A stretch of DNA of 64,000 nt, taken from the NCBI RefSeq assembly GCF_013363975.1, contig NZ_JABWGN010000009.1, forward strand, positions 310,001 through 374,000, read 5' to 3'. The notes under the pieces are model-generated. The model was not told the DNA's origin, searched no databases, and saw nothing but the letters and a program-made list of their open reading frames with translations. The translations under genes were made by a program, and so were the position numbers. This DNA comes from Nonomuraea montanisoli (lineage in GTDB: Bacteria > Actinomycetota > Actinomycetes > Streptosporangiales > Streptosporangiaceae). How positions within the stretch are numbered: position 1 is the stretch's first letter; the number at the start of each line of letters is the position of its first letter. Positions 15,860 through 31,544 of the stretch are shown here, piece by piece.

Positions 15860-17068
15860 TCAGCTCTTCTTCCCGCCCCAGGCCTCCGGGAACCCGGGGA
15901 GGGTTTCGCAGCCGCACAGCGCGTAGTGCAGCGGCGGCATGTTCGGCTTCAGGTAGGTCGACAGGTTCTCCGAGGTGACCTTCGGCTGCGGCAGGTTCCA
16001 CGCCTTGGGCACCTCCTCGCCCTTGAGGATCTTCAGCGCGGCGATGACCGGCGTACGCCACTGGTAGGTCGGGTAGGTCGGCGCGACGGCGGTGAGGTTG
16101 GCGTCCTTCCACTTCTGCAGGAAGTCCTGCTGGTCCTCGCCGTTGATCGGCGGAACCGGCAGGCCCGCGTCCTCGAACGCCTCGATCGCCGCCACCGCCG
16201 TGGCCCCCGCGTCCATCCACACGCCGTCGATCTTGCCGTACCGCTGGATGTAGTCGCTGACGATGCTCTTGGTCTTGGCCGCGTCGCCGTCGGTGAACTC
16301 CACCCCCACGACCTGGACCTTGCTCTTGTCGAACGTCATCTTCGCCGCCGACCAGCGGGTCTCCAGCACGTCCACCCCGGGCAGGATGCGCAGCGCGAGG
16401 ACCTTCCCGCCGGCCGGCACCTTCTCGACCAGGAACTCGGCGGCGTCGGCGCCGAAGGCGTAGCCGCCGATGGGCTTGATGAACGTCACCGGGCAGTCGG
16501 TCTCCACGCCCCGGTCGAACACGATGACGGGCACCTTCCCGCACGCCGCCGTCACGGCCGGGGTGAGCGTGGCCGTGGTGTTGGGCGAGACGATCAGCGC
16601 GTCACAGCCCTTGGCCTGCAGCTCGGCGATGTCGGAGATCTGCTTGTCGTCCTTGCCCTCGGCGTCCAGGGTGGTGAACTTGGTGATCTCCTTGTGCAGG
16701 CCGACCTCGGCCTGCATGGTCTTCCAGCCGACCTGCCGCCACGGGTTGTTGACCGCGGCGTTGGAGAAGCACAGGTGGTACGGTCCGTCCTTCTTGTACT
16801 TGGCGGTGTCGGCCATCCTCGGGGCTATGGCCTGCTCCCACGGCTTGTCCGCGGGACCCTGCGGGGCCTGGGCGCGCATGGCGAGCTGCGCGTCGAAGTC
16901 CGCCTGCACGAAGAACTTCGACTGCTCGCCCGTGCCCGAGCCCTCGGCACTCCGACTGGCGCTCGAGGTGGGTGCGGCGGGCTGGGTGGTGGCCGTCGGC
17001 TTGTCGGTGGTGCAGCCCGCGACGACGAGCACGGCGAACACGGCGACTGTCGCCTTATGACGCGGCAT
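15860..17068 (-). CDS. Sugar-binding lipoprotein of CUT2 ABC importer
   Basis: 402 residues from ATG 17068 after AAGGAG. The N-terminus is a lipoprotein signal with lipobox VAGC and acylated Cys near residue 19, followed by a Ser/Thr/Ala-rich tether. The body is a periplasmic-binding-protein type I fold related to ribose/xylose-binding proteins. The coding start overlaps the upstream permease by 14 bases, fixing it in the operon. It captures the sugar outside the membrane for the two permeases and the double ATPase encoded upstream. It is longer than RbsB (~300) because of the tether and insertions. Ligand unknown. Confidence 0.9.
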   Translation of the reverse strand: MPRHKATVAVFAVLVVAGCTTDKPTATTQPAAPTSSASRSAEGSGTGEQSKFFVQADFDAQLAMRAQAPQGPADKPWEQAIAPRMADTAKYKKDGPYHLCFSNAAVNNPWRQVGWKTMQAEVGLHKEITKFTTLDAEGKDDKQISDIAELQAKGCDALIVSPNTTATLTPAVTAACGKVPVIVFDRGVETDCPVTFIKPIGGYAFGADAAEFLVEKVPAGGKVLALRILPGVDVLETRWSAAKMTFDKSKVQVVGVEFTDGDAAKTKSIVSDYIQRYGKIDGVWMDAGATAVAAIEAFEDAGLPVPPINGEDQQDFLQKWKDANLTAVAPTYPTYQWRTPVIAALKILKGEEVPKAWNLPQPKVTSENLSTYLKPNMPPLHYALCGCETLPGFPEAWGGKKS

Positions 17069-18005
17069 GTGCGTCTCCTTTTCGGGGGGTGAACATCCGG
17101 GGCAGGTGGACGGCTCCCGCCGCCACCGCGGCGATGATGATGACGCCCTGCACGGTGAACTCCAGCGCTCCCGAGATCCCGTACAGGTTGAGCAGCGTGA
17201 ACAGGGCCTCCAGCGTGAAGGCCCCGGCCATGGCGGCGAGCACGGAGCCGCGGCCGCCGCCGAGCACCACGCCGCCGAGCACGACCGCGGTGATGGCGGA
17301 GAACTCCAGTCCCTGACCCACCTGGGCCGAGACGCCGGCGAACCCGCCGAGCAGGATCGCCGCGACGGCCGCGGCCAGGCCGGAGAGCATGAACGCGATG
17401 ATCTTGGCCCGGTCGACGCGGACCCCGGACAGCGCTGCGGCGCGCTCGTTGTCGCCGGTGGCGATGAGGGTCTTGCCGAAGTCGGCCCGCATGAGCCAGA
17501 TCGCCGCCGCGCCCACGGCCAGCAGGATCAGCACCGACCACGGCACCGGTCCGAGCCCGCCGCGGCCGAAGGCACGGAAGCCCTCCGACAACGCGCCGCG
17601 CGGCGCGCCGCCGGTCCACAGGAACACGGCTCCGGACAGGATGAGCAGCATGCCGAGCGTCACGATGAACGACGGCACCCGCAGCTTGGTGGTGACCACG
17701 CCGTTGACCAGCCCCACGAGCAGCCCGATGACGATCAGCAGGGCGATGACCGGCCACGTGGCGGATCCGTCGCCGTCGATGAGCCGCGCGGCGATCACGA
17801 CCTCGGCCGTCACCAGCGAGCCGACCGACAGGTCGAACTCGCCGGAGACGATGACGAAATACTGCCCGGCGGCCAGGATCACCAGCGGAGCGGCCCGCTT
17901 GAGGAACGCCAGGAACCCGGCGGGCTCCAGGAAATGGGGGTTGGCGATGGCGATCGCGGCCAGCAGCACCATGAGGACCGCGAGGATCGGAAGGGTCCGC
18001 TTCAT
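17055..18005 (-). CDS. CUT2 sugar ABC permease (RbsC-like)
   Basis: 316 residues, about ten hydrophobic segments, family features such as the ISGEFDLSVGS-type loop early in the protein and the VVLGGVVLGGGRGS loop near the C-terminus. ATG 18005 overlaps the stop of the preceding permease by four bases (ATGA). Together with the neighbouring permease it forms a heterodimeric channel, whereas many ribose systems use one homodimeric permease. Confidence 0.92.
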   Translation of the reverse strand: MKRTLPILAVLMVLLAAIAIANPHFLEPAGFLAFLKRAAPLVILAAGQYFVIVSGEFDLSVGSLVTAEVVIAARLIDGDGSATWPVIALLIVIGLLVGLVNGVVTTKLRVPSFIVTLGMLLILSGAVFLWTGGAPRGALSEGFRAFGRGGLGPVPWSVLILLAVGAAAIWLMRADFGKTLIATGDNERAAALSGVRVDRAKIIAFMLSGLAAAVAAILLGGFAGVSAQVGQGLEFSAITAVVLGGVVLGGGRGSVLAAMAGAFTLEALFTLLNLYGISGALEFTVQGVIIIAAVAAGAVHLPRMFTPRKGDAHAAS

Positions 18006-19015
18006 ACTGACCGCCCCTTGATACGCCGGGCGTAGACGGCCACCGCGACGACGATGACCACGCCGCGGACCACGTCCTTGACGAAGGAGTTGACCTCGAG
18101 CTGGTTGAAGATGGTGTCCAGGACGGCCAGCAGCAGGACCCCGCCGACCGTCCCGGACACGCCTCCCTTGCCGCCGGCCAGCGCGGTCCCGCCGAGCACG
18201 ACCGCGGCGATGGACTCCAGGTCGTAACCGCCGTCGGTGCCGACCGTGGGCGCGCCGGCGCCGAGCCGGCTGGCCAGCAGCAGCCCCGCGATTCCGGCGC
18301 AGACCGAGCAGAGCACGTGCGTGAGCACGATGGCCCGGCCGGTGCGGATCCCGGACAGCCGGGCGACCTCCTCGTTCCCGCCGACCGCGTAGACGCGGTA
18401 GCCCAGCCGGGTCCTGCTCAGCAGGAACCAGGCCACGACCGCCACGCCGGCCCAGAGCACAGCGGAGACGGGGATCGGCCCGATCCGGGAGTAACCGAGC
18501 AGCTGGAACGACTCGGGCACCTTGCCCGCCGGGCCGTCGTACAGGTGATCGACGACGCCCTTGATGATGAGGGCGACGCCGAGCGTCGCGATGAAGGCGT
18601 GGACCCGGAGCCTCGTGATGACCAGCCCGTTGACCAGCCCCACCAGCGCGCTGACGCCGAGCACCGCGGCGACCGCCGGCAGGACGTTCCCGTCCCGGCC
18701 CGCCATGATCTCCGCCGCGACCAGCGAGGTCAGGCTGATCAGGTAGGCCACGGACAGGTCGAGCGACCCGGCCAGGATCGCCAGCGTCTGCCCGATCGCC
18801 ACGATGCCCAGCGCCGCCGAACGCTGCTGGATCCCGACGACGCTCTCCATGGTCAGGAACTGGCCTCCGTCGAGCGCGACGAGGACCCAGCCGAGGGCGA
18901 TCAGAGCGAGCAGCGCGAGGAACACCACCTGCGTGGGCTCACGTAACCGGGCCGCCAGGCCGCCTCGTGCCTCGCTGCGGGGAGCGGGACGGCGGGCGCG
19001 TGAGAGCGTGTTCAT
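18002..19015 (-). CDS. CUT2 sugar ABC permease (RbsC-like)
   Basis: 337 residues, multi-spanning. Carries the AGSLDLSVAYL and AVVLGGTALAGGKGG loops that mark the BPD_transp_2 permease family. Its ATG directly follows the TGA of the ATPase gene, with GAGAGG upstream, so translation is coupled. First of two permeases of the importer. Confidence 0.92.
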   Translation of the reverse strand: MNTLSRARRPAPRSEARGGLAARLREPTQVVFLALLALIALGWVLVALDGGQFLTMESVVGIQQRSAALGIVAIGQTLAILAGSLDLSVAYLISLTSLVAAEIMAGRDGNVLPAVAAVLGVSALVGLVNGLVITRLRVHAFIATLGVALIIKGVVDHLYDGPAGKVPESFQLLGYSRIGPIPVSAVLWAGVAVVAWFLLSRTRLGYRVYAVGGNEEVARLSGIRTGRAIVLTHVLCSVCAGIAGLLLASRLGAGAPTVGTDGGYDLESIAAVVLGGTALAGGKGGVSGTVGGVLLLAVLDTIFNQLEVNSFVKDVVRGVVIVVAVAVYARRIKGRSV

Positions 19016-20455
19016 TCAGGCCACCTCTCCCGCGGCCAGGCGCATGATGGCCTCCTCGGAGGGGGCGGCCGGCAGCGTGCCGGCGATCCGGCCGTCCCGC
19101 AGGACGACCATGCGATCGCTCATGCCGATGAGCTCGGGCAGCTCGGAGGAGATCATCATGATGGCCATGCCGTCGTCGGCCAGCTCGCGCATCAGGTCGT
19201 GAATGGCGGCCTTGGCGCCGACGTCGACGCCCCGGGTCGGTTCGTCGAACAGCAGCACGCGCGGCGCCATCGTCATCCACTTGGCGAGCACGACCTTCTG
19301 CTGGTTGCCCCCGGACAGGTAGCGGACCTCCTGTTCCTGACGCGGAGGCGAGAGACGTACCCGTTCGAGCAGGTCGCGGACGCCGTCGCGGCTTCTGGCG
19401 CCCACCGCGCGGGCCACCAGCAGAGCGTTGTCGCGCACCGACTGGCGCAGAGCGAGCCCTTCGGCCTTGCGGTCCTCGGTCACGAGGCCGATGCCCAGGG
19501 CCACGCCTTCCCGGACCGAGCGCGGGCGGGAGGGGGTCATCTCACCCGTGGTGAACGGTTCCGCGCCGAAGATCGCCTTGGCGAGTTCCGACCTGCCGGA
19601 TCCCTGCAGGCCCGCGAGGCCCACGATCTCCCCGGCCCGTAACTCCAGGTCGATGTCGTGGAGCTTGTGGTTACCGGCTCGGCGCAGGCTGAGCCGTGCC
19701 TCGCCGATCGCGGACGACCGTGGCGGAAAGTAGGTGCCGAGATCGCGGCCGACCATCAGCCTGATCAGCTCGTCGGAGGACACCTCGCTGATCGGGACCG
19801 TGGTGACGAGCGCGCCGTCCTTGAGCACGGTGACCCGGTCGGCGAGGTCGAACACCTCCCGCAGGCGGTGGGAGATGTACACGACGGCGACGCCGCGCTC
19901 CCGCAGCCGCCCGATCAGCTCGTAGAGCAGCTCGACCTCGTGCTCGGCGAGCGCCGCGCTGGGCTCGTCCATGACGACGAGCCGGGCGTTCACCGACAGC
20001 GCCTTGACGATCTCCACCACCTGCTGCTGGGCCACCGACAACCGCTTGACGGCATCACGAGGGCCGAAGGAGTCCTCGCCCAGCTCGTCGAGCAGCCGCG
20101 CGGTCGCCTCCTCCATCGCCGCCCGGTCGACCAGGCCGCGCCGGACCGGCTCGCGCCCCAGGAAGACGTTCTCGGCGACGGTTCGCTCGGGCAACAGGTT
20201 GAACTCCTGGTAGATGATCGCGATGCCCGAACGTTGCGCGTCGAGGGGGTGGCCGAAGGAGACCGGCCGCCCGTCGATCTCGACGGTGCCGTCGTCCGGC
20301 GGGTGCACCCCACAGATGATCTTCATGAGGGTGGATTTGCCGGCTCCGTTCTCGCCGACGACGGCGTGGACCTCACCGGCCGTCACCTCGAGGTCGATTC
20401 CGGAAAGCACCCGCACGCCGAGGAAGCTCTTGCCGATGCCGCGCATGCTCAGCAC
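19016..20455 (-). CDS. CUT2 sugar ABC importer ATPase, tandem ABC domains (RbsA-like)
   Basis: About 479 residues. GTG 20455 lies eight bases after GGAGG and overlaps the stop of the oxidoreductase gene (GTGCTGA); ATG 20446 is an alternative. N-terminal ABC domain with Walker A GENGAGKST and Walker B VVMDEPSAAL; its signature segment is the variant LSVAQQQ. C-terminal domain has a degenerate P-loop (GLQGSGRSEL), but an intact signature LSGGNQQK and Walker B LLFDEPTRGVD. One degenerate and one canonical nucleotide site is usual for this family. Powers import through the two downstream permeases. Confidence 0.94.
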   Translation of the reverse strand: MLSMRGIGKSFLGVRVLSGIDLEVTAGEVHAVVGENGAGKSTLMKIICGVHPPDDGTVEIDGRPVSFGHPLDAQRSGIAIIYQEFNLLPERTVAENVFLGREPVRRGLVDRAAMEEATARLLDELGEDSFGPRDAVKRLSVAQQQVVEIVKALSVNARLVVMDEPSAALAEHEVELLYELIGRLRERGVAVVYISHRLREVFDLADRVTVLKDGALVTTVPISEVSSDELIRLMVGRDLGTYFPPRSSAIGEARLSLRRAGNHKLHDIDLELRAGEIVGLAGLQGSGRSELAKAIFGAEPFTTGEMTPSRPRSVREGVALGIGLVTEDRKAEGLALRQSVRDNALLVARAVGARSRDGVRDLLERVRLSPPRQEQEVRYLSGGNQQKVVLAKWMTMAPRVLLFDEPTRGVDVGAKAAIHDLMRELADDGMAIMMISSELPELIGMSDRMVVLRDGRIAGTLPAAPSEEAIMRLAAGEVA

Positions 20456-21543
20456 TCCGTCCACCTCCCGGTCCGCGCCGAGGTGAGGACGGCCTCGCAG
20501 ATCGCGGCCGCACGGGCCCCGTCCGCGAACACCGGCAACCCGTCGCGGTGCTCGCCGCGGAACGCGGCGTAGGTGTCGGCGACGAAGGCGTCGAAGCAGT
20601 CGTGGTAGCCCTGCGGGTGTCCGGCCGGGAGGGGCGAATAGGACCGGGCCGCCTCCGACAGGATCGCCGGGTCGCGCATGAGCGTCCGTGATCCGTCGCG
20701 ATCGCCGACCCAGAGCAGCTCGGGCTGTTCCTGGTCGAAGGCGAGGCTCGCCTCGGTGCCGGAGATCTCGAGGAACAGGCGGTTCTTGCGGCCGGGGGAG
20801 ACCTGGCTGGTGGCGAGTGTGCCGACGGCGCCGGAGGCGGTCCGGAACTGGACGGTGGCCATGTCCTCCGTCACGACGGGCGCGTTCGTCGCCCGCCTGG
20901 ACTGGACGATGGCGGTCTGCGCGCAGACGCTGACGATGCGGTCTGCGGTGACGAACTCCGCCAGGTCGCACCAGTGGGAGCCGATGTCGGCGAACGCCCT
21001 GCTGGGCCCGCCGAGCTCGGGGTCCACCCGCCAGTTGTCGTCGTCCGAGCGGAGCAGCCAATCCTGGAGATAGCTTCCCTGGATCAGGCTGATCCTGCCG
21101 ATGTCGCCGCGGGCGACCCGCTGCCGGGCCTCCCTGACCATGGCGTGGAAGCGGTACACGAAGGGCACCGTCGCGACCAGTCCCGCCTCGGCCGCCCGGC
21201 CCGCCATGAGTGCGGCGGTCATCGCGTCGCCGGCCAGGGGTTTCTCGCAGACGACGGCCAGCCCGGCCGACAGCGCCTTGAGGACGAACGGCGCGTGGAG
21301 ATGGTTGGGGGTGCAGATGTGCACCAGATCGATCTCGCCCGACTCGATGAGCTCGTCGGCGGAGGCGAAGGCCCTGGCGGCGCCCAGCCCGGCCTGCTGC
21401 GCCTTCTCCCATCGCGACCCGGCCACCCCGGCGATGACAGCCCCGGCCGCGCGTGCGGCGCGGGCATGCACCCGGCCCATGAAACCGGTGCCGACGATCC
21501 CTACCCGCGGAGCATCGTCCGGTTTCCGGCTTATGTCCTTCAT
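20449..21543 (-). CDS. Gfo/Idh/MocA family NAD(P)-dependent oxidoreductase
   Basis: 364 residues. N-terminal Rossmann fold with GIVGTGFMGRVHA (about residues 15-27), then the CEKPLAGD motif whose Lys is the usual catalytic residue of the family. C-terminal alpha/beta substrate domain. First gene of the ABC operon. ATG 21543 lacks a Shine-Dalgarno sequence and lies about two bases after the predicted transcription start of promoter 21552-21581, so the mRNA is probably leaderless. Family members include inositol 2-dehydrogenases and glycoside 3-dehydrogenases. With a TIM-barrel epimerase in the same operon, oxidation of a sugar or cyclitol hydroxyl is the likely reaction; the substrate is unknown. 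Confidence 0.92.
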   Translation of the reverse strand: MKDISRKPDDAPRVGIVGTGFMGRVHARAARAAGAVIAGVAGSRWEKAQQAGLGAARAFASADELIESGEIDLVHICTPNHLHAPFVLKALSAGLAVVCEKPLAGDAMTAALMAGRAAEAGLVATVPFVYRFHAMVREARQRVARGDIGRISLIQGSYLQDWLLRSDDDNWRVDPELGGPSRAFADIGSHWCDLAEFVTADRIVSVCAQTAIVQSRRATNAPVVTEDMATVQFRTASGAVGTLATSQVSPGRKNRLFLEISGTEASLAFDQEQPELLWVGDRDGSRTLMRDPAILSEAARSYSPLPAGHPQGYHDCFDAFVADTYAAFRGEHRDGLPVFADGARAAAICEAVLTSARTGRWTEC

Positions 21544-21581: not shown

Positions 21582-21660
21582 GCAAAAGTTTAAGCGTAAA
21601 TGGCATAATGGCGGATGAGGGATCATAGGAAGTGTGTATCGCCCGACGGATGGAGCGCTG

Positions 21661-22854
21661 TTGACTGAGAGCATGCTGACCGGCACAAGCACCGCGGCGG
21701 CCGGAGCGGGGGCTCTGCTCTCGATCCTGCGTGACGGGCAGGCCCGCACCCGCGCCGAGCTGGTCGAGCTCACCGGCCTGGCGCGGTCCACGGTCTCCCT
21801 CCGCCTCGACGCACTGCTGAGTCAGCGCTGGGTGGTGCCGGGCGATGACGTGATCTCCTCGGGCGGTCGCCCCGCGACGGCGTTCACCTTCAACAAGAGT
21901 GCGCGGATCGTGCTCGCGGCCGACCTGGGGGCGACGCACGCCCGGCTCGCCGTGACCGACCTCGCGGCCACGACGCTGGCCGAGCGCGAGGCCGAGATGC
22001 CCATCGGCCGCGGTCCGGAGGCCGTCCTGACCTGGCTCGTGGACACCTTCCGCGAGCTCCTCGACGAGTGCGGCCGGCGTCTGGCCGACGTGTGCGGCGT
22101 CGGCGTCGGGCTGCCCGGGCCGGTGGAGCATGACACCGGCAAGCCGGTCAACCCGCCGATCATGCCCGGCTGGGACGGCTTTCCGGTGCCCGACTGGCTC
22201 GGCGCCCGGCTCGGTGTCCCCGTGCTGGTCGACAATGACGTGAACATGATGGCGCTGGGTGAGTACTGGGCCGGACGCTCTCAGGTCGAGCACCTCGTCT
22301 ACGTCAAGATCGGCACCGGCATAGGGTGCGGCATCATCAGCGGCCGCCGCCTGCACCGCGGTGCGCAGGGCGCGGCGGGTGACATCGGCCATATCCGGGT
22401 GCCCTCGTCCGACGAGAACGTGGCGTGCCGCTGCGGCAACATCGGCTGCCTGGAGGCGGTGGCGGGCGGCGCGGCACTGGCCGCGCGCCTGCGCGCGGCG
22501 GGCCACGAGACCGCCGACACCCGCGACGTCGTACGTCTGGTGCGGGCCGGCAACACCGAGGCCATCCAGATGATCCGGCAGGCCGGCCGGGAGGTCGGCG
22601 TCGTCCTGGCCTCCATCGTGAACTTCTTCAACCCCGCCATGATCCTGATCGGCGGCGACCTCGCGGGAGCGGGCGAGCACCTGCTCGCGGGGCTTCGAGA
22701 GGTGATCTACAGCAGGTCCCTGCCCCTGGCCACCCAGCATCTGAGCGTTCGCGTCAGCGAGCTCGGCGACCGGGCGGGGGTGGTCGGCGCGGCGGTGATG
22801 ATCATCGAGCACATGTTGTCGCCCGAGGCCGTGGACCAGGCGTTGTCGGCCTGA
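21661..22854 (+). CDS. ROK-family transcriptional regulator
   Basis: About 397 residues. TTG 21661, five bases after GGAG, is chosen; GTG 21634 (SD three bases away) and ATG 21673 are alternatives. An N-terminal winged helix-turn-helix (segment with RAELVELTGLARSTVS) precedes a ROK sugar-kinase-like domain with DLGATHARL and the zinc-binding CRCGNIGCLE motif (GxCGxxGCxE type). The kinase-like fold usually senses a sugar. Divergent from the oxidoreductase/ABC operon and upstream of the EBO-type operon, both carrying the shared GCTTGACC block, so it is the obvious candidate regulator of that set. Binding is inferred, not shown. Confidence 0.9.
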   Translation: MTESMLTGTSTAAAGAGALLSILRDGQARTRAELVELTGLARSTVSLRLDALLSQRWVVPGDDVISSGGRPATAFTFNKSARIVLAADLGATHARLAVTDLAATTLAEREAEMPIGRGPEAVLTWLVDTFRELLDECGRRLADVCGVGVGLPGPVEHDTGKPVNPPIMPGWDGFPVPDWLGARLGVPVLVDNDVNMMALGEYWAGRSQVEHLVYVKIGTGIGCGIISGRRLHRGAQGAAGDIGHIRVPSSDENVACRCGNIGCLEAVAGGAALAARLRAAGHETADTRDVVRLVRAGNTEAIQMIRQAGREVGVVLASIVNFFNPAMILIGGDLAGAGEHLLAGLREVIYSRSLPLATQHLSVRVSELGDRAGVVGAAVMIIEHMLSPEAVDQALSA

Positions 22855-22984: not shown

Positions 22985-24136
22985 ATGCGCAAGCTCGGTG
23001 TCTGGTTCATCGGAGCACGCGGATCCGTGGCGACCACCGCGACCGTCGGCGCCGCGGCGGTCAAGTCGGGCACGTCACCGCCCCAGGGATGTGTCACCGA
23101 GTCTCCCGACTTCCCGGTGGGGCTGGTTCCGATCGCCGACCTGGTGTTCGGCGGCCATGACATCACTGAATGCCCCTTACGGAAGCGCGCGGAACAGCTG
23201 AGCAGGGCGGGAGTGGTGCCGGCGGGCCTGCCCGGACTGCTCGCCCAGGAGCTCGACGCCGCCGACGCGGAGATCAGACGGGGCCATGTTCCCGGCGACG
23301 GCACCCAGGAGGCGGCCGCGGCCCGCCTGGCCGGCGACATCGCCGGCTTCCGCGACCGGCACCGGCTCGCCCGGGTGGTCGTCGTCAACGTCTCGTCGAC
23401 CGAGCCCCCCGCCGCCCCACGCCCGGAGTTCCAGCACCTGGCCGCCCTCGAAGAGCGGCTCGCCGCGGGCGACGACGTGCTGCCGACAAGCTCGCTCTAC
23501 GCCTACGCGGCGTTCCGCGCCGGCTGCGGCTACGTGGAGTTCACCCCGTCGACCGGCCCTGCCCTGCCGGCCTTGGCCGAGCTCGCCGAGTTGCGGGCCC
23601 TGCCGTATGCGGGGCGCGACGGGAAGACCGGCGAGACCCTGGTCAAGAGCGCGCTCGCGCCCATGTTCGCGCAGCGGTCGCTGCGGGTCCGCTCGTGGTC
23701 CGGGCTCAACCTTCTCGGCGGGGGAGACGGAGCCACCCTCGCCGACCCCGCGGCCCGATCGAGCAAGACGCTCTCCAAGGAACGGGCCGTCGCCGGCATC
23801 CTCGGCACCCCCGTCGAAGGAGAGACGCACATCGACTACGTCGAGGATCTCGGGGAGTGGAAGACCGCCTGGGACCACGTGACCTTCGAGGGGTTCCTCG
23901 GCGTGCGCATGAGCCTCCAGTTCACCTGGCAGGGTTGCGACTCGGCGCTCGCCGCGCCGCTCGTCCTGGATCTGGCCCGGTTGGTGGCCCGCGCACACGA
24001 GTGCGGGCGGTACGGCGTGCTGGCGGACCTCGCCTTCTTCTTCAAGGACCCGCTGGGCACGGATGAGCACGCCCTCGCCGCCCAGTACGCCCGGCTCCAC
24101 GCGTTCGCCGCGGACCTGGCCGGGGACGCCTCGTGA
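22985..24136 (+). CDS. Myo-inositol-1-phosphate synthase family protein of EBO-type cluster
   Basis: 383 residues; ATG 22985 with AGGAG five bases upstream. NAD-binding N-terminus (FIGARGSVA), then family segments such as NVSSTEPP, FTPSTG, GKTGETLVKSALAPMF, and a C-terminal domain ending in the TWQGCDSALAAPLVLD region typical of inositol-3-phosphate synthases. The classical enzyme cyclises glucose 6-phosphate to inositol 3-phosphate. First gene of a seven-gene operon, overlapping the next by four bases. Described EBO clusters encode a dehydroquinate-synthase-like cyclase (EboD) that is absent here, so this unrelated sugar-phosphate cyclase may take that role (inference). A simple housekeeping role in inositol supply is the alternative. 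Confidence 0.88.
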   Translation: MRKLGVWFIGARGSVATTATVGAAAVKSGTSPPQGCVTESPDFPVGLVPIADLVFGGHDITECPLRKRAEQLSRAGVVPAGLPGLLAQELDAADAEIRRGHVPGDGTQEAAAARLAGDIAGFRDRHRLARVVVVNVSSTEPPAAPRPEFQHLAALEERLAAGDDVLPTSSLYAYAAFRAGCGYVEFTPSTGPALPALAELAELRALPYAGRDGKTGETLVKSALAPMFAQRSLRVRSWSGLNLLGGGDGATLADPAARSSKTLSKERAVAGILGTPVEGETHIDYVEDLGEWKTAWDHVTFEGFLGVRMSLQFTWQGCDSALAAPLVLDLARLVARAHECGRYGVLADLAFFFKDPLGTDEHALAAQYARLHAFAADLAGDAS

Positions 24137-25008
24137 AGGCGCTGCTCGAACTGGTCCGGGCCCCCGCCGCGCTCTCGGTGCCGGGGGACATGATGGCCGG
24201 GGCCGCCGCCGCCGGGCGGCGCGCCGCACCCGGGCTGGCCCTGTCCTCGGTGCTCGTCTACTGGGCGGGCATGGCGCTCAACGACTGGGCCGACCGCGAG
24301 GCCGACGCCGCCGAACGGCCGGAGCGCCCCATCCCCTCGGGCCGGGTGCGCCCGGGCACCGCACTCGGCATCGCGGCCGGGCTGACCGGCACGGGGCTGA
24401 TCGCCGCCGCGGTGTCCGGGGGGCGCCGTGCCCTGGGAGTGGCGGGCTTGCTGGCCGGTGCGGTGTGGGCGTACGACCTGGGACTCAAACGGACGCCGCT
24501 GGGGCCGGTCACCATGGCGACCTGCCGCGCGTTGGACGTGCTCCTCGGCGCCGGCCCGCAGGTCAGGGCCGCCGCTCCGATGGCGCTGGCGATCGGCGCG
24601 CACACCTACGGCATCAGCATCCTCGGCCGGGCCGAGGTGGCCGGGGCGACGGTGAAGACCGTGCGCGGCGCTCTCGCCGCCAGCACCGCCGCGGCCGGTC
24701 TGGCGGCTGTGTCCTGCCTGCGTGACGGCTCCTCCTCCAGCGGCTCCTCCTCCAACGGCGCCGCCGCGCGGGCGGGCGCCGCGCTTCTTCTCGCCGGCCA
24801 TCTCGCCGCGACCATCCCGGCCCAGGCCCGATTACGCGCCCGCCCCGATCCAGAACAGGTACGCAAAGCCGTCCAGGCGAGCATTCTCGGCCTGATCCCG
24901 CTGCAGGCGGCGGCGGTGGCGGGGCGCGGACGGCTGCCGGCGGCGGGAGCGCTGCTCGGCGCGCTGCCCGCGGGCAGGTGGCTCTCGGCCCGGATGGCCA
25001 CGTCGTGA
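24133..25008 (+). CDS. eboC: UbiA-family prenyltransferase (EboC-type)
   Basis: 291 residues, eight or nine hydrophobic helices. GTG 24133 overlaps the previous stop (GTGA). The first Asp-rich motif, NDWADREADAAERPERP, is the prenyl-diphosphate/Mg binding site of UbiA enzymes; the second is weaker (segment around RALDVLLGA). It would attach a polyprenyl group to an acceptor in the membrane. Matches the UbiA-like member of EBO clusters by position and neighbours. Confidence 0.86.
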   Translation: MKALLELVRAPAALSVPGDMMAGAAAAGRRAAPGLALSSVLVYWAGMALNDWADREADAAERPERPIPSGRVRPGTALGIAAGLTGTGLIAAAVSGGRRALGVAGLLAGAVWAYDLGLKRTPLGPVTMATCRALDVLLGAGPQVRAAAPMALAIGAHTYGISILGRAEVAGATVKTVRGALAASTAAAGLAAVSCLRDGSSSSGSSSNGAAARAGAALLLAGHLAATIPAQARLRARPDPEQVRKAVQASILGLIPLQAAAVAGRGRLPAAGALLGALPAGRWLSARMATS

Positions 25009-25943
25009 TCGGGACCGGCGGACAGGGGCGGCCCCTGAACTGGGCCTACTGCACCAACGGATTCTCCGGCCACCGACTCCACGAGGCTCTCGACCTCCTG
25101 TCCGAGCTGGGCTACACGGGCGCCGCCATCACCCTGGACCACGGCCATCTCGATCCCTACGCTCCCGGATTGAGCGCCCAGGTGAGCCGGATCGCGGGGC
25201 TGCTCGACCGGCTCGGCATGAACGCGGTCATCGAGACGGGCGGGCGCTACACCCTGGACCCCCGGCGCAAGCACCATCCCACCCTCATCAGCGACGGCGC
25301 CGACCGCCGTGCCGGGTTCCTGAACCAGGCCATGCGGGTCGCCGCCGACCTGGGCGCCCCCGTGGTGCACCTGTGGAGCGGGATCCGGCCCGAGGACCTG
25401 CCGGAGGAAGCGGCGTGGGCCCGGCTGGCCCGCCAGTGCGAGGGGCTCCTCGCCACGGCCGACCGCCTCGGCGTCACGCTCGGATTCGAGCCCGAACCCG
25501 GAATGCTCGTGGAGGACCTGAGCGGATTCGAGAGGCTGAGTGCCATGCTCGGCGGTCACCCCCGTCTCGGGCTCACCCTCGACGTCGGGCACTGCCGCTG
25601 CCTGGAGCCGGACGACCCGCCCGCCTGCGTCCGGCGAGCGCTGCCGTATCTCGTGCATGTGCAGATCGAGGACATGCGCCGAGGCGTCCACGAGCATCTG
25701 GAGTTCGGCGAGGGCGAGATCGACTTCCCGCCGGTGCTGGCCGCGCTGGCCGGCTACCGGGGACAGGTGGCCGTGGAGCTCGCCCGGCACTCCCACGCGG
25801 CGCCACAGGTCGCCCGCCGATCCATCGCCTTCCTGAGGAAGGCGCACGACGAACTCGGTGAGAAAGGAGCAGGTCGGCATGGGCGAGATCGGGCCGAGGG
25901 CGGGGGAGTGGCTGGCGTGGGCACTGTCGCGGGTGGAGGCTGA
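25005..25943 (+). CDS. Sugar isomerase/epimerase-like TIM barrel in EBO-type operon
   Basis: About 312 residues from GTG 25005, which overlaps the EboC stop (GTGA). The N-terminal LNWAYCTNGFSG resembles the AYCTN start of EboE two genes on, suggesting the two are distant paralogues. Metal ligands are visible: Glu in GFEPEPGM, Asp/His in LDVGHC, His in HVQIED, and a late Glu in VELARHSH. The C-terminal ~25 residues are Gly-rich and overlap the EboA start, so may be unstructured. Function within the pathway unknown; isomerisation or epimerisation of a polyol/sugar phosphate is likely. Confidence 0.82.
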   Translation: MIGTGGQGRPLNWAYCTNGFSGHRLHEALDLLSELGYTGAAITLDHGHLDPYAPGLSAQVSRIAGLLDRLGMNAVIETGGRYTLDPRRKHHPTLISDGADRRAGFLNQAMRVAADLGAPVVHLWSGIRPEDLPEEAAWARLARQCEGLLATADRLGVTLGFEPEPGMLVEDLSGFERLSAMLGGHPRLGLTLDVGHCRCLEPDDPPACVRRALPYLVHVQIEDMRRGVHEHLEFGEGEIDFPPVLAALAGYRGQVAVELARHSHAAPQVARRSIAFLRKAHDELGEKGAGRHGRDRAEGGGVAGVGTVAGGG

Positions 25944-26394
25944 CCATGGCGCGGTCCACCTGCTCTTCCCCCAGGCTGAACGGCGGGGCGGCACCGGTGC
26001 GCGGCGCGCGCTGCTCGCGGCCCTGCACGCCGACGAGGCGACGATACGGACGCTCTACGAGCGCGGCGACACCGGTGAACGGCTGACGATCCTGACCGCC
26101 CTGCCCGAGCTCGGCCTCGGCGCGGCGGCGATCCCACTGGTCGAGGACGCGCTGCGCACCAACGACGCGCGGCTGGTGGCCGCGGCCCTCGGGCCGTACG
26201 GCGCGCGGTGGCTCGACGACCACGCCTTCCGCCAGGGCGTGCTCAAGTGCGTCTTCATGGAGATCCCGCTGGCCTCCGTCTCCGGCCTCGACCGGCGGAC
26301 CGACGCGGAGCTGACGCGCATGCTGTCGGACTACGCGACCGAGCGGCGGGCGGCCGGACGCCCGGTTCCCCACGACATCCTGGAGAGGATCTGA
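25879..26394 (+). CDS. eboA: EboA-domain protein
   Basis: About 171 residues, all-alpha. ATG 25879 is chosen because AAAGGAG lies nine bases upstream; GTG 25858 is possible. It starts inside the preceding gene (65-base overlap), so translation is coupled. The C-terminal segment with VFMEIPLASVSGLDRR and DAELTRMLSDYA is the recognisable EboA signature. No biochemical activity is known for the family; its constant co-occurrence with EboB, EboC, EboE and EboF supports a structural or accessory role in metabolite processing or export. Confidence 0.85.
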   Translation: MGEIGPRAGEWLAWALSRVEADHGAVHLLFPQAERRGGTGARRALLAALHADEATIRTLYERGDTGERLTILTALPELGLGAAAIPLVEDALRTNDARLVAAALGPYGARWLDDHAFRQGVLKCVFMEIPLASVSGLDRRTDAELTRMLSDYATERRAAGRPVPHDILERI

Positions 26395-27236
26395 TGCGCA
26401 TCTTCGACCCGCACATCCACATGACCTCCCGGACCACCGACGACTACCAGCGGATGCACGACGCCGGGGTCCGCGCAGTGGTCGAACCGGCCTTCTGGCT
26501 GGGCCAGCCCCGCACCAACATCGGCAGCTTCCTCGACTATTTCGACGCGCTGCTCGGCTGGGAACCGTACCGGGCCGCCCAGTACGGCATCCGCCACCAC
26601 TGCGCGCTCGCGCTCAACCCGAAGGAGGCCAACGACCGGCGCTGCGCGGAGGTGCTGGCCGAACTGCCGCGATACCTGCTCAAAGACTCCGTCGTCGCGG
26701 TCGGCGAGGTCGGATACGACTCGATGACCCCCGAGGAGGAACGCGCCTTCGAGGCCCAGCTCGCGATGGCGGCGGAGAACGACCTCCCGGTCCTGGTCCA
26801 CACCCCGCACCGCGACAAGGTCGCGGGAAGCCGCCGCAGCCTCGACGTCGTCAAGGCCGCGGGCATGCCGCCCGGACGGGTGCTCGTCGACCACCTCAAC
26901 GAGCCGACCGTCGGCCTGGTCGCCGATTCGGGTTGCTGGATGGGATTCTCGATCTACCCCGACACGAAGATGGATCCCGGCCGGATGGTGGCGATCCTCA
27001 AGGAGTACGGCACCGCCAGGATGCTGGTGAACTCGGCCGCCGACTGGGGGCGCAGCGATCCCCTGAAGACCCGCGAGGTCGGCGACGCCATGCTCGCGGC
27101 CGGCTTCGGCCAGGACGAGGTGGACCAGGTGCTCTGGCACAATCCGGTCGCCTTCTACGGGCAGAGCGGCCGGCTCGATCTGGGGACCGGCTCAGCCGGC
27201 CTCGACTACGCCGGCAACACGATCAGACGGGGATGA
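26394..27236 (+). CDS. eboB: TatD-family metal-dependent hydrolase (EboB)
   Basis: 280 residues; ATG 26394 shares one base with the upstream TGA. TatD/amidohydrolase barrel with N-terminal metal motif FDPHIHM, Glu in AVGEVGYDS, His in LVHTPHRDK and in VDHLNE, and a late Asp in SAADWGRSD. Probable metal-dependent hydrolase of a small substrate; the EBO-specific reaction is unknown. Confidence 0.87.
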   Translation: MRIFDPHIHMTSRTTDDYQRMHDAGVRAVVEPAFWLGQPRTNIGSFLDYFDALLGWEPYRAAQYGIRHHCALALNPKEANDRRCAEVLAELPRYLLKDSVVAVGEVGYDSMTPEEERAFEAQLAMAAENDLPVLVHTPHRDKVAGSRRSLDVVKAAGMPPGRVLVDHLNEPTVGLVADSGCWMGFSIYPDTKMDPGRMVAILKEYGTARMLVNSAADWGRSDPLKTREVGDAMLAAGFGQDEVDQVLWHNPVAFYGQSGRLDLGTGSAGLDYAGNTIRRG

Positions 27237-28351
27237 CGATGCGGCTGCGCCATCCGGACGGCTCGACCGTGCACCTGGCCTACTGCACCAACGTGCACCC
27301 CGCCGAGGATCTCCCCGGCATCCATGGACAGCTCTCAGGCATCGCGGCGCGGGTCAGGAAACTGCTCGGCGCCGAACGCCTCGGTCTCGGCCTGTGGCTG
27401 TCGCAGCACGCCGCCGCGGACCTGCTCGCCCGGCCCGGCGAGCTCGCCGGTCTGCGTGATCGGCTGGCCGTGCTCGGGATGGAGGTCGTCACTCTCAACG
27501 GGTTCCCGTACCGCGGCTTCCACGAGGAGATCGTGAAGTACCGCGTCTACACCCCTGACTGGGCCGACGCGGAGCGGCTGCGCCACACCCTGGGGCTCGC
27601 CGAGATCCTGGCCGCGCTGCTGCCCGACGACCTCACCGAGGGAACGATCTCCACGCTGCCCCTCGCCTGGAGGACCGGCTGGACGGCGCAGAAGGCGGCG
27701 GCGGTCGCGGCCAACCTCGGCCTCGTCGCCCGCGGACTGCGCGAGCTGGCCGAGCGGACCGGCAAGACGATCCGGCTTGGCTTCGAACCAGAGCCGGGCT
27801 GCATCGTCGAAACCACTGCGCAGGCCACGCGCCTGCTCGCCGACGCCGACCGCGACCACCTCGGCGTATGCCTGGACGCCTGCCACCTGGCCGTGGGTTT
27901 CGAGGAAGCCGCCGCGGCGGCCGGGCTCGGGCTCCCCATCGTCAAGCTCCAGGCATCGTGCGCCCTGGAGGCGCCGCCCGGCACCCAGGACGCGCTGAAG
28001 GCGTTCGACGAGCCGCGCTTCCTGCACCAGACGCGCTCGCGGAGCGGATTCACCGACGATCTGGGCGAGGCGCTGGCCGGCGGCCTGCCCGTGGGGGAGC
28101 GCTGGCGGGTGCACTTCCACGTGCCGCTGCACGCCGCACCACCGCCACCGCTCCGCACCACCGCGCCCCACCTGCGGGAGCTCCTGGACGCCCTGCTCGG
28201 CGGGCCCGCCCCGCTCACCCGGCACATCGAGGTGGAGACCTACACCTGGAACGTGCTCCCCGGCGCGCCGCCGGACCTCGCCGAAGGCATCGCCGCCGAA
28301 CTCGACTGGACCCGGCGGCAGCTCGCCGCGCTCGGGCTGAAGGAGCTGTGA
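27233..28351 (+). CDS. eboE: EboE metabolite-traffic protein, TIM-barrel
   Basis: 372 residues from ATG 27233 (ATGA overlap). Begins with the characteristic AYCTNVHPAEDL segment and includes LNGFPYRGFH, Glu in GFEPEPGCIVE, Asp in VCLDACH and the late HIEVETYTWNVLP motif seen in EboE. Xylose-isomerase-like fold with probable metal site. In cyanobacteria EBO genes are needed for export of scytonemin monomers to the periplasm; the actinobacterial substrate is unknown. Confidence 0.88.
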   Translation: MTMRLRHPDGSTVHLAYCTNVHPAEDLPGIHGQLSGIAARVRKLLGAERLGLGLWLSQHAAADLLARPGELAGLRDRLAVLGMEVVTLNGFPYRGFHEEIVKYRVYTPDWADAERLRHTLGLAEILAALLPDDLTEGTISTLPLAWRTGWTAQKAAAVAANLGLVARGLRELAERTGKTIRLGFEPEPGCIVETTAQATRLLADADRDHLGVCLDACHLAVGFEEAAAAAGLGLPIVKLQASCALEAPPGTQDALKAFDEPRFLHQTRSRSGFTDDLGEALAGGLPVGERWRVHFHVPLHAAPPPPLRTTAPHLRELLDALLGGPAPLTRHIEVETYTWNVLPGAPPDLAEGIAAELDWTRRQLAALGLKEL

Positions 28352-29676
28352 TGGCGCCACTGGTCGTGATCAACGTCGTCGGGCTCACCCCGCGCCTGCT
28401 GGCGCACATGCCCAACGTGGCGAGGGTGGGCCGGGCCGCCCGCCTGCGCCCGGTCCTGCCGGCCGTCACCTGCTCGATGCAGGCCACACTGCTCACCGGC
28501 ACACCGCCACGTGAGCACGGCATCGTGGGCAACGGCTGGTACTTCCGCGACCTCGGCGAGGTGCTCCTGTGGCGTCAGCACAACGCGCTCATCCAGGGCG
28601 ACCAGCTGTGGAGCGCCGTGCCCGGCCTGCGCACCGCCAACGTGTGCTGGTGGTACGCGATGGGTGCCGCGACCGACCTGCTCGTCACCCCGCGCCCCAT
28701 CTACCACGCCGACGGCCGCAAGTCGCCCGACTGCTACACCCGCCCGCCCTCGCTCCACGACGACCTGGAGGCCGCTCTCGGCCCGTTCCCCCTGTTCACC
28801 TACTGGGGGCCGAACGCCGGGATCGCCTCATCGCGGTGGATCATCGCCGCCGCCCGCCGCATCCTCTCCCGCGAACGGCCCGACCTGCTGCTCGTCTACG
28901 TCCCGCACCTCGACTACGACCTGCAACGGCACGGCCCCGACGGCCCTGAGGCGATCGCCGCGGCACGCGCCGTCGACGCCGCGCTGGCCCCGCTCCTCCA
29001 GGAGGACGCCGAGGTGGTGGTGCTGTCGGAGTACGGCATCACGCCGGCCTCGCGCCCGGTGGACATCAACCGCGCGCTCCGCGGCGCGGGCCTGCTGGAG
29101 GTCCACACCCAGGCCGGGATGGAGTACCTCGACCCGTGGACCTCCCGTGCCTTCGCCGTCGCCGACCACCAGGTGGCCCACGTGTACGTACGTGATCCCG
29201 CCGACCTCGATCGCGCGCGCGACGTCATCGCCGCCCTGCCCGGCGTGGAAGAGGTGCTCGACCGGACGGGCAAGGCGAAGTACGGCCTCGACCACGAACG
29301 CGCGGGGGAGCTCGTCGCCGTGGCCGAGCCCGACGCCTGGTTCACCTACTACTACTGGCTCTCCGACGACCGGGCCCCGGACTTCGCGCGGCTGGTGGAC
29401 ATCCACCGCAAGCCCGGCTACGACCCCGCCGAGCTGTTCATGGATCCCCGGGACCCCTTCGTCAAGCTCCGCGCCGCCGCTGCGCTGGCCAGGAAGAAGC
29501 TGGGTTTCCGGTACACGATGTCCGTCGTGCCGCTGGACCCCTCGCCGGTGCGCGGCAGCCACGGCCGCCTCCCCGACGATCCGGCCGACGGCCCCGTCCT
29601 CATCGGCCCGTTCGACGGCGACGCCTATGCGGCGACCGAGGTCAAGGGCCTTCTCACCGCCCTCATCCGCCGGTGA
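28351..29676 (+). CDS. eboF: Alkaline-phosphatase/nucleotide-pyrophosphatase family protein (EboF)
   Basis: 441 residues; ATG 28351 overlaps the previous TGA by one base. Type I phosphodiesterase/alkaline phosphatase fold: early INVVGL metal site, nucleophile region VTCSMQATLLTG, HLDYDLQRHGP and EYGITP metal-binding segments and late ADHQVAHVY. No signal peptide, so probably cytoplasmic or membrane-surface. Last gene of the operon. Likely hydrolyses a phosphate or phosphodiester in the EBO intermediate. Confidence 0.87.
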   Translation: MAPLVVINVVGLTPRLLAHMPNVARVGRAARLRPVLPAVTCSMQATLLTGTPPREHGIVGNGWYFRDLGEVLLWRQHNALIQGDQLWSAVPGLRTANVCWWYAMGAATDLLVTPRPIYHADGRKSPDCYTRPPSLHDDLEAALGPFPLFTYWGPNAGIASSRWIIAAARRILSRERPDLLLVYVPHLDYDLQRHGPDGPEAIAAARAVDAALAPLLQEDAEVVVLSEYGITPASRPVDINRALRGAGLLEVHTQAGMEYLDPWTSRAFAVADHQVAHVYVRDPADLDRARDVIAALPGVEEVLDRTGKAKYGLDHERAGELVAVAEPDAWFTYYYWLSDDRAPDFARLVDIHRKPGYDPAELFMDPRDPFVKLRAAAALARKKLGFRYTMSVVPLDPSPVRGSHGRLPDDPADGPVLIGPFDGDAYAATEVKGLLTALIRR

Positions 29677-30064: not shown

Positions 30065-30270
30065 CCGCCTCTTGCGCACTGGCAATCTATGCGCTTAAGT
30101 GGTCTCCACAATTTCCGTATCTAAGCGCTTAAATGAACGTGTTCATGGGAGCCCGCGGCGTCGGGGGAGTGATTGGCGTGCGCTCGCACGCAGTTCTCGC
30201 CGCAGACGCCTGTCCAGATACGACGCCGTGATCCACGAGGTGGACGGCTCCACGAAAGGAAACAGCGATG
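30065..30270 (+). repeat. Promoter/leader repeat copy A (inverted relative to 36076-36280)
   Basis: 206 bases ending at the ATG of the sugar-binding protein. It aligns with the minus strand of 36076-36280: the first 36 bases differ at two positions, the promoter and both operators are kept, and scattered blocks (GGGAGCCCG, ACGACGCCGTGA, CCACGAA) continue to the start codon. Confidence 0.85.
30087..30132 (+). promoter_or_regulatory. LacI-type operators and promoter of CUT1 operon
   Basis: Two near-palindromes, CTATGCGCTTAAG (30087-30099) and CTAAGCGCTTAA (30121-30132), 34 bases apart centre to centre. A TTAAGT (-35, 30095-30100), 17-base spacer and TATCTA (-10, 30118-30123) lie across them. 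The core TAAGCGCTTA fits LacI-family sites, and the same pair occurs before the GH1 gene. The operators overlap both promoter boxes, so repression is expected. Confidence 0.7.
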
Positions 30271-31542
30271 AGTCGGACGAAGATCGCCGGACTGGCCGTC
30301 GTGACGGCTGCCGCGCTGGCACTGACCGCCTGCGGAAGGGGGAGTACGACCTCCTCGTCGGACCCGGTGGGATCGGCGCTCTCGTCGGGACCGGCCAAGG
30401 GCACCATCACCATGTGGGCGCAGGGCGCGGAGGGCGCGGCTCTTCCCTCGCTCGTGAAGGAGTTCGAGGCGGCCAATCCCGGGGTGAAGGTCAACATCAC
30501 GGCCATCCCCTGGGACGCCGCCCACAACAAGTACCAGACCGCGATCTCCGGCGGGACCACGCCGGACGTGGCCCAGATGGGCACCACATGGATGGCGGAC
30601 TTCTCCACCGCCTTCGACCCGACTCCGAAACAGGTCGACACCAGTGGCTTCTTCGAGGGGGCGAAGGCCGCCACCATGATCAATGGCGCGTCGCTCGGTG
30701 TTCCCTGGTACGTGGACACCAACGTCATCTACTACCGCACCGACCTCGCCGCCAAGGCGGGCTACACCTCACCCCCCACCAACTGGGCGGACCTGAAGGC
30801 GATGGCCAAGGCGATGCAGGAAAAGGCCGGCGCCAAGTGGGGAATGGCGCTGACTCCCGGAGGAGCCGACTCCTTCCAGCTCACCTTGCCGTTCATCTGG
30901 TCCAACGGCGCTTCGCTGATGAACGCCGACGGTACGAAGTGGACGTTCGACACGCCGGAGATGGCCGGCGCGCTGAAGTACTACCAGAGCTTCTTCACCG
31001 AGGGCATCTCCGACAAGAACCTCTCGACCGCCGCCGGCGCCAAGGAGTCGGCGTTCGTGAGCGGCGCCACGCCCATGCTCGTCAACGGACCGTTCGAGAT
31101 CGGCCAGCTCAATCAGGCCGGCGGCGCCGACTTCGACAAGAAGTACGGCGTCATGCGGTTCCCGAAGCAGAAGAGCTCGACCTCCTTCGTCGGCGGTTCC
31201 GCCCTGGTCGTGTTCAAGAAGTCCAAGAATCGCGACGCCGCGTGGAAGCTGATCCAGTGGCTCTCCAAGGCCGATGTCCAGGCCAAGTGGCAGAAGATGG
31301 TGGGCGATCTCCCCGCCGTCCAAGCGGCTTGGAACGATCCGGCACTGGCGGGTGACGAGAAGCTGTCGGTGTTCAAGGAGCAGCTTCAGGACGTCAAGTC
31401 CCCGCCGGCCAACACCTCATGGACTCAGGTCGGCGCCGCCGCGGACACCATGCTTGAGCAGATCGTGAAGGCGGGTACGGATCCCGCCGCCGCGCTCAAG
31501 GACCTGCAGGCCAAGGCCGACTCGATCGGTACGGGAGGCTGA
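30268..31542 (+). CDS. CUT1 sugar-binding lipoprotein
   Basis: 424 residues; ATG 30268 after AAAGGA. Lipoprotein signal with lipobox LTAC (Cys near residue 22) and a Ser-rich tether. Extracellular solute-binding protein family 1, with the FEAANPGVKV and YPXGDXXW-like landmarks of oligosaccharide binders. First gene of a three-gene importer under two LacI-type operators. The linked GH1 copies suggest beta-glucosides or cello-/laminari-oligosaccharides as ligand (inference). Confidence 0.92.
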   Translation: MSRTKIAGLAVVTAAALALTACGRGSTTSSSDPVGSALSSGPAKGTITMWAQGAEGAALPSLVKEFEAANPGVKVNITAIPWDAAHNKYQTAISGGTTPDVAQMGTTWMADFSTAFDPTPKQVDTSGFFEGAKAATMINGASLGVPWYVDTNVIYYRTDLAAKAGYTSPPTNWADLKAMAKAMQEKAGAKWGMALTPGGADSFQLTLPFIWSNGASLMNADGTKWTFDTPEMAGALKYYQSFFTEGISDKNLSTAAGAKESAFVSGATPMLVNGPFEIGQLNQAGGADFDKKYGVMRFPKQKSSTSFVGGSALVVFKKSKNRDAAWKLIQWLSKADVQAKWQKMVGDLPAVQAAWNDPALAGDEKLSVFKEQLQDVKSPPANTSWTQVGAAADTMLEQIVKAGTDPAAALKDLQAKADSIGTGG

Positions 31543-31544
31543 AC

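Follow-up and report, generated by a model that had tools for sequence, protein, structure and literature searches.

A myo-inositol-phosphate synthase in the place of EboD in an ebo-type gene cluster of Nonomuraea montanisoli and other Actinomycetota

The stretch analysed here, termed the window, comprises 64,000 nucleotides of the actinobacterium Nonomuraea montanisoli (assembly GCF_013363975.1, contig NZ_JABWGN010000009.1, positions 310,001–374,000, forward strand) and carries an ebo-type gene cluster in which a myo-inositol-phosphate synthase (MIPS) stands in the place of the cyclase EboD. Ebo (EDB) clusters with EboD are described from cyanobacteria, Bacteroidetes, Deinococcus, proteobacteria, and others (PMC5133447, PMC6282210). 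In the window, seven ebo-region genes at positions 22985–29676 all run in the same direction and each overlaps the next (Table 1), with successive overlaps of 4, 31, 86, 1, 4, and 1 bases for the open reading frame (ORF) starts used, the 86-base overlap joining the genes of the extra TIM barrel and the EboA-domain protein. A first, sequence-only reading had proposed this seven-gene makeup with overlaps of 1–65 bases. All of the ORFs were recovered at their place and strand and overlap throughout, though the prenyltransferase scored below the NCBIfam cut-off for EboC and the largest overlap lay outside the proposed range (65 bases agrees with an EboA start further downstream). A scan of named genomes for EboE, from which the best 80 of at least 590 loci were kept, returned all seven genes in the same order at 48 of the 80 (42 without other matches and 6 with additional ROK matches), and the arrangement is therefore not a product of chance; most of the other loci were cut by contig ends or lacked MIPS.

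Table 1. Genes of the ebo-type cluster and associated genes in the window (feature, position, strand, supporting model)
Ebo-type MIPS	22985..24136	+	PF07994/PF01658 above cut-off
UbiA-superfamily prenyltransferase, SCO3242 family (EboC counterpart)	24133..25008	+	NF045897
Extra xylose-isomerase-like TIM barrel	24978..25943	+	PF01261, 123 bits
EboA-domain protein	25858..26394	+	NF035938
EboB-like TatD-like metal-dependent hydrolase	26394..27236	+	PF01026, 52 bits (cut-off 27)
EboE, xylose-isomerase-like TIM barrel	27233..28351	+	NF035939
EboF-like phosphodiesterase/phosphatase	28351..29676	+	PF01663, 193 bits (cut-off 23)
ROK-family regulator (associated, not core)	21634..22854	+	PF00480, 222 bits
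Gfo/Idh/MocA oxidoreductase (associated; start approximate)	20452..21507	-	PF01408/PF22725 above cut-off
Ribose-type sugar ABC importer: binding protein, two permeases, ATPase (associated)	15860..20455	-	PF13407, PF02653 twice, PF00005
Importer binding-protein ORF	15860-17068	-	

Both MIPS domains of the cluster enzyme were above cut-off (PF07994, 155 bits; PF01658, 111 bits), and its closest solved relative was the MIPS of Archaeoglobus fulgidus (1u1i; 231 bits, E = 2.3e-67). Four lysines (K261, K265, K293, and K354), which we take to be the active-site lysine set of MIPS, aligned with those of the A. fulgidus enzyme at the same spacing, were invariant across 16 cluster MIPS copies, and were also common to the mycothiol-type copy of the host. 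Chains 3qvw and 3qvx carry alanine at the positions aligned with K265 and K354 and are presumably designed active-site mutants. Judged by these aligned lysines, the cluster MIPS looks competent. The A. fulgidus enzyme is archaeal and is not known to belong to a prenyltransferase cluster. The model for the mycothiol-type MIPS (TIGR03450) returned 33.6 bits for the cluster MIPS against a cut-off of 638.

On contig 55, the host genome (9.76 Mb, 82 contigs) carries another MIPS, which reads as mycothiol-type and shares 23% identity with the cluster MIPS. The cluster MIPS is thus not required for mycothiol, and its candidacy as the housekeeping copy was rejected. The single dehydroquinate synthase gene of the host is AroB, with adjoining genes that read as aroC and aroK, and no EboD was found in the genome, the EboD query scoring 127.7 bits compared to 482–989 bits for true EboD. 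Contig 55 also carries a lone EboE relative (L045:9148-10272; 207 bits, cut-off 250; 41% identical), and no other ebo gene was matched within the 19.5 kb around it.

In a survey of 396 Actinomycetota genomes, EboE occurred in 19. A search with the cluster-MIPS alignment matched 79 of these genomes at 1e-30, 17 of which scored 566–620 bits and the others at most 321 bits. All 17 genomes with a cluster-type MIPS have EboE on the same contig and less than 6 kb away, while the two EboE genomes without one were G381, with an EboD-type cluster, and G279, with broken ebo genes. The decayed cluster of G279 (L044:6642-11643) has EboE in two pieces, a prenyltransferase fragment only, and no MIPS match. 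At the 80 EboE loci from named genomes, MIPS was present in 53 and EboD in none; 14 of the 27 loci lacking MIPS begin within the cluster, where their contig ends (including L072 and L078), and 13 have room for it. When 24 chosen genomes were searched with the EboD query, EboD-level scores occurred only in G381 (989 bits) and G615 (482 bits), and the other 22 (20 with a MIPS-type cluster, G279 with its broken cluster, and G406 with MIPS apart from ebo genes) gave at most 135.4 bits, with no match in G318. Among 394 genomes belonging to the host's class, none had an EboD match at E 1e-60, with at most four candidates scored per genome among the matches listed. MIPS was absent from all six EboD-type loci (L030, L129–L132, and L156). 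In the class of G381, EboE occurred in 6 of 299 genomes, comprising two EboD-type loci (L030 and L156), two loci with MIPS (L159 and L160), one locus truncated behind the TIM barrel by a contig end (L158), and a lone EboE (L157, from G599; 414 bits, above cut-off) with no other ebo gene matched in 19 kb.

Overall, the replacement of EboD by MIPS is confirmed and widespread in the phylum, and it is the common form of the cluster in the sampled Actinomycetota. The sequence-only reading was right that MIPS occupies the place of EboD, as EboD was not detected in the host or in the 20 MIPS-type genomes examined, and the co-occurrence survey that it had suggested linked this type of MIPS to the ebo genes in 17 of 17 genomes. 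The outcomes that it had named as refuting, a separate EboD together with a housekeeping need for this MIPS, or MIPS and ebo genes never being linked, were not observed. The cluster is not a local variant, and the notion of a peculiarity of this strain was rejected, with the cluster-type MIPS carried by 17 of the 396 genomes and 53 of the 80 EboE loci.

Copies of the cluster without MIPS formed a distinct set in Streptomyces (13 clusters plus L027). Eight of these (L051, L053, L054, L056, L066, L069, L071, and L027) have three extra genes upstream, for a gamma-glutamyltransferase, an inositol-monophosphatase-superfamily protein, and an FAD oxidoreductase, followed in several by a P450. The inositol-monophosphatase-family gene was considered as proof of inositol chemistry and dropped, occurring in only 8 of the 14 loci; its best model was histidinol-phosphatase (128.7 bits, cut-off 275), ahead of inositol-1-monophosphatase (76.5 bits). 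A cluster-type MIPS was present elsewhere in 13 of 14 genomes, the 14 being those of the 13 MIPS-less clusters and that of L072, where the start of the cluster coincides with the end of a contig. In G404 this MIPS is split into two pieces on a short contig; the one genome without it, that of S. alanosinicus, is a draft. Among 14 MIPS loci fetched from these genomes, nine have TIM barrel, EboA, EboB, and EboE and three reach a contig end. In the remaining two (L171 from G401 and L172 from G406), the MIPS lies in a sugar operon without ebo genes, save an EboF remnant in L171. The linkage of MIPS to ebo genes is therefore complete within the survey sample but not outside it, and the MIPS may serve a sugar operon too.

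A tree of EboB, EboE, and EboF combined, built by a quick method from 51 chosen rows (35 with MIPS, 10 without, and 6 EboD-type), required two label changes, the fewest possible. The EboD-type rows fell on one side, divided from the MIPS lineage by a single split (SH-aLRT 100), and one MIPS-less clade (SH-aLRT 100) lay inside the MIPS lineage. The tree was rooted on the EboD rows and gives no direction for the swap; long branches led to L042 and L130. The neighbour of the host cluster on the tree was Microbispora sp. H11081 (Streptosporangiaceae), and both EboD-type and MIPS-type clusters occur within one family (f43). EboB and EboF of the window are 40–58% identical to the proteins of the six EboD-type loci. 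A homologue of the extra TIM barrel at E 1e-10 was found at 45 of 45 loci of the MIPS lineage and at none of the six EboD-type loci, from which it follows that the extra barrel accompanies MIPS. A different isomerase lies nearby in Ketogulonicigenium. A single protein combines the TIM barrel and EboA in L042, and an actinobacterial EboA fused to a xylose-isomerase-like domain is reported in PMC5133447, representing the same pair that is encoded by overlapping genes in the window.

The cluster shares with the EboD-type form an EboA-domain protein, EboB, EboE (with the EboE model matched), EboF, and a UbiA prenyltransferase, and differs from it in the MIPS and extra TIM barrel that replace EboD, in a prenyltransferase below the EboC cut-off, and in its separate side of the tree. 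The ebo genes of the actinobacterium Saccharomonospora are compared with EboD-type clusters in PMC9235831. In the main text of four ebo papers (PMC5133447, PMC6282210, PMC6092422, and PMC9235831) the word “inositol” is absent, and the parts of these papers that deal with the cluster give no product. No description of a MIPS-type ebo cluster was found in open-access titles and abstracts (subscription papers were not covered), though the NCBI annotation of plasmid records already gives names to the individual parts of the cluster without joining them. In S. coelicolor, SCO3242 (a putative transferase) and SCO3243 (a myo-inositol phosphate synthase) are listed as CDA cluster genes (PMC3610822); SCO3242 names the prenyltransferase family matched here and the MIPS has the adjacent gene number, though the listing places them only in the CDA cluster and draws no link to ebo. 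The outline of the hygromycin A aminocyclitol pathway in PMC10949010 differs in mentioning neither ebo genes nor a UbiA step. New here are the linked sugar-importer/3-keto-glycoside operon described below and the MIPS-less Streptomyces copies, mostly with a MIPS elsewhere.

The prenyltransferase matched the SCO3242-family model (NF045897; 324.5 bits, cut-off 260) and fell short of the NCBIfam EboC model (NF035940; 120.6 bits, cut-off 250). It has a DxxDxxxD motif at residues 51–58, invariant in an alignment of 20 sequences, together with Y43 and R132. The Asp of its RxLD motif was considered as a mark of the MIPS type and dropped, as Nostoc EboC is reported with Arg142 and Asp145. By profile, the protein was closest to digeranylgeranylglyceryl phosphate (DGGGP) synthase (6m31, 62 bits). 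DGGGP synthase prenylates a glycerol-phosphate ether, and as the nearest profile it makes a phosphorylated cyclitol a reasonable acceptor for the cluster enzyme. The prenyltransferase UbiA-297, encoded in a flavobacterial ebo cluster, farnesylates quinoline derivatives, and its Tyr56 and R145 are proposed to bind the acceptor (PMC9235831). Both are ebo-cluster UbiA proteins with DxxDxxxD, Tyr, and Arg, and Y43 and R132 are 89 residues apart, like Tyr56 and R145; they differ in that the substrates assayed for UbiA-297 were quinolines and that its cluster is described with EboD (PMC9235831).

The best reading of the cluster, though one about as apt to fail as to hold, is a dedicated inositol-phosphate route that replaces the route through EboD and ends in a prenylated cyclitol lipid. 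The simplest reading of the exchange itself is that the MIPS takes over the cyclitol step. The MIPS would cyclise glucose 6-phosphate to inositol 1-phosphate, giving the ring that EboD would give elsewhere, and the membrane prenyltransferase would attach a prenyl chain to this cyclitol or to a compound derived from it. Both the extra TIM barrel and EboE, as metal-dependent barrels, may isomerise or dehydrate an oxidised form, EboF may remove or hydrolyse a phosphate group, EboB may act as a hydrolase, and EboA could serve as a helical scaffold that stays with the TIM barrel. EboF has phosphonoacetate hydrolase as its best PDB relative (52.6 bits). The EboA-domain protein matched NF035938 (155 bits, cut-off 50), was below the narrower EboA_family model (NF035937; 71 bits, cut-off 320), and is predicted as a helical repeat (AlphaFold pLDDT 94.5); a fold search with it gave no match below E 0.8. 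The product may be a prenylated inositol-derived lipid that serves the neighbouring exported enzymes, for example as a lipid carrier. Such a lipid and its use with exported enzymes are suggested by what is known of these families and by Klicki et al., who proposed a lipid carrier for the ebo cluster of cyanobacteria; in Nostoc punctiforme, ebo is reported to have a role in the movement of a metabolite from the cytoplasm outwards (PMC6282210). Counted in favour of this reading are the co-occurrence of MIPS and EboE, the failure to find EboD, the single split on the tree, the alignment with the A. fulgidus MIPS, the extra TIM barrel of the MIPS lineage, the MIPS found elsewhere in most genomes with a MIPS-less copy, the DGGGP synthase profile, the carrier proposal, and three kinds of neighbouring gene: a polyprenyl synthase beside some MIPS-type clusters, a type-2 isopentenyl diphosphate isomerase gene that immediately follows EboF in L030, an EboD-type cluster (12574-13659; 319.7 bits, cut-off 281.3), and a ScyD/ScyE-family gene directly before MIPS in S. 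camelliae (L133:3221-4423; 243 bits, cut-off 80). After EboF, the S. camelliae locus has genes for an aromatic prenyltransferase, a methyltransferase, and a multicopper oxidase.

Several observations weigh against this route. A MIPS fold may not mean a MIPS reaction, as a synthase of five-membered cyclitol phosphates (6k96) is a weaker relative of the cluster MIPS (48.6 bits). The substrate of EboD is only guessed, as sedoheptulose 7-phosphate, and phosphate is released by sugar phosphate cyclases (PMC5133447), whereas the ring that MIPS forms stays phosphorylated; the two products are therefore not identical. UbiA-297, likewise an ebo-cluster prenyltransferase, acts on quinolines and not on cyclitols (PMC9235831). 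Polyprenyl synthase neighbours were few (5 of 42 MIPS-type loci), with one in 20 control stretches as well, and the single polyprenyl synthase scanned reached 305, below the NCBIfam cut-off of 600. The MIPS lay in a sugar operon apart from ebo genes in 2 of the 14 fetched loci, and the MIPS-type cluster is patchy even among the host's relatives (24 of 59, host included).

Beyond the core cluster, the ROK regulator lies immediately upstream of MIPS in the window, followed by the divergent Gfo/Idh/MocA gene and the sugar importer. The nearest NCBIfam models of the Gfo/Idh/MocA protein were levoglucosan dehydrogenase (153, cut-off 650) and IolG (110, cut-off 355). Downstream of the cluster, the window has another sugar ABC importer and a glycoside hydrolase of family GH95, at 30268-33361 and 37902-40883. 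A frequent order in Streptomyces is RbsC, RbsB, Gfo, TIM90, GSDH, ThuA/3-keto-disaccharide hydrolase, the seven ebo genes, and a TIM barrel with a twin-arginine-like start (TatTIM), in which TIM90 matches SCO6571 (2zds, 690 bits) and, more distantly, a 2-hydroxy-3-keto-glucal hydratase (8ro4, 133 bits). Ten neighbour families were counted within ~10 kb at 42 self-chosen MIPS-type loci, some of which supplied the queries, and at 20 control stretches from survey genomes. At least two families occurred at 30 of the 42 loci compared to none of the controls, and at least one at 31 compared to one control, a comparison that is partly circular in that the families were defined on the same loci. Several of the families were also present at L159 and L160, which belong to another class and were fetched after the families had been defined. 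ROK matches occurred at 11 of the 42 loci and at none of the controls. A crude count of export signals flagged 46 of 49 TatTIM, 35 of 45 GSDH, and 16 of 22 ThuA proteins compared to 0 of 98 EboB, and is a hint only, as it also flagged 49 of 68 MIPS through their NAD-binding start. The sequence-only reading had left the exporter in actinobacteria blank; sugar importers and glycoside-oxidation genes were found, and no exporter tied to the cluster was seen among the neighbours scanned.

This neighbourhood raises the alternative that the whole region is a catabolic locus for sugars or cyclitols that degrades a glycoside through the importer, the Gfo dehydrogenase, the relative of 2-hydroxy-3-keto-glucal hydratase, the ThuA/3-keto-disaccharide hydrolase, and the exported GSDH proteins, with MIPS and the ebo enzymes as accessories. 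It would explain the enrichment of neighbour families, the matches of TIM90, and the two MIPS genes that lie in this operon without ebo genes. It is nonetheless unlikely. Twelve of the 42 MIPS-type loci lack two such neighbours despite having the core genes, other copies adjoin unrelated biosynthesis-like genes (L128 and L133), SCO3242 and SCO3243 are listed in the CDA cluster (PMC3610822), MIPS and prenyltransferases are biosynthetic families, and the enrichment carries the circularity described above.

The two barrels bear on a further alternative. EboE matched its model (NF035939; 389 bits, cut-off 250), is predicted as a confident TIM barrel (AlphaFold pLDDT 93), and has the conserved residues E185, D215, H218, Q240, and E335. 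In the extra TIM barrel, E171, D202, H205, and E267 are conserved, with Q229 replaced by His in 2 of 16 sequences. The residues listed for QuiC1/QsuB include Glu134, Asp165, His168, Gln191, and Glu239 (PMC7442255), and both barrels share this pattern of Glu, Asp-xx-His, Gln, and Glu, with the Gln standing where the aligned UlaE has His. By fold, EboE was nearest to epimerases (Z 24.4, 2.7 Å over 260 residues); a Foldseek search placed epimerases, isomerases, IolI, IolE, and AsbF alike among its relatives, with epimerases leading and AsbF 32nd, and a second fold search had neither AsbF nor IolE among the 50 matches listed. The fold searches did not settle the chemistry. Under this alternative, the cyclitol would be aromatised first: a Gfo/Idh/MocA enzyme would oxidise inositol to an inosose, the TIM barrel and EboE would dehydrate it in the manner of 3-dehydroshikimate dehydratase, and the resulting polyhydroxybenzene would be prenylated to a quinol-like lipid. 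The QuiC1/QsuB-like residues agree with such a dehydration, UbiA-297 prenylates aromatic quinolines, and acid dehydration of inosose is reported to give 1,2,3,4-tetrahydroxybenzene (PMC11467972). Aromatisation is a still less probable account than glycoside catabolism, with the variable Gln of the extra barrel, the lead of epimerases over AsbF, a Gfo gene detected at only 8 of the 42 MIPS-type loci, and a precedent that is chemical and not enzymatic. A related and improbable extension is a new class of prenylated redox-active lipid with an inositol-built head group, serving exported carbohydrate-oxidising enzymes, of which the EboD-type clusters would make a heptose-derived analogue. Inositol 1-phosphate would be freed of its phosphate, oxidised to inosose, and dehydrated by the two barrels acting like 3-dehydroshikimate dehydratases, and the polyhydroxybenzene or diketone formed would be prenylated in the membrane.

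Also improbable is that the MIPS only adds to the supply of inositol for mycothiol or inositol lipids and accompanies the ebo genes without a shared pathway: the family is common in the phylum (the 79 genomes noted above, mostly at or below 321 bits) and can sit apart from ebo genes (L171 and L172), but the host has a separate mycothiol-type MIPS, co-occurrence was 17 of 17, the MIPS and prenyltransferase genes have 4 bases in common, and MIPS-less copies occur mostly where a MIPS is present elsewhere (13 of 14).

That another type of cyclase occupies the position of EboD suggests that the ebo pathway needs a carbocycle and that its product is built on a ring-shaped sugar alcohol. Inositol 1-phosphate is a candidate precursor that can be fed, labelled, and traced in Streptomyces laboratory strains. 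The operon of exported and 3-keto-glycoside enzymes, and the ScyD/ScyE-family neighbour, as in scytonemin producers, are possible partners for the proposed role in traffic. At L076, L084, and ~30 other loci, an oxalate-like gene set adjoins the cluster on the opposite strand (an OFA-type transporter, a CoA transferase, and a decarboxylase, of which the transporter alone was scanned).

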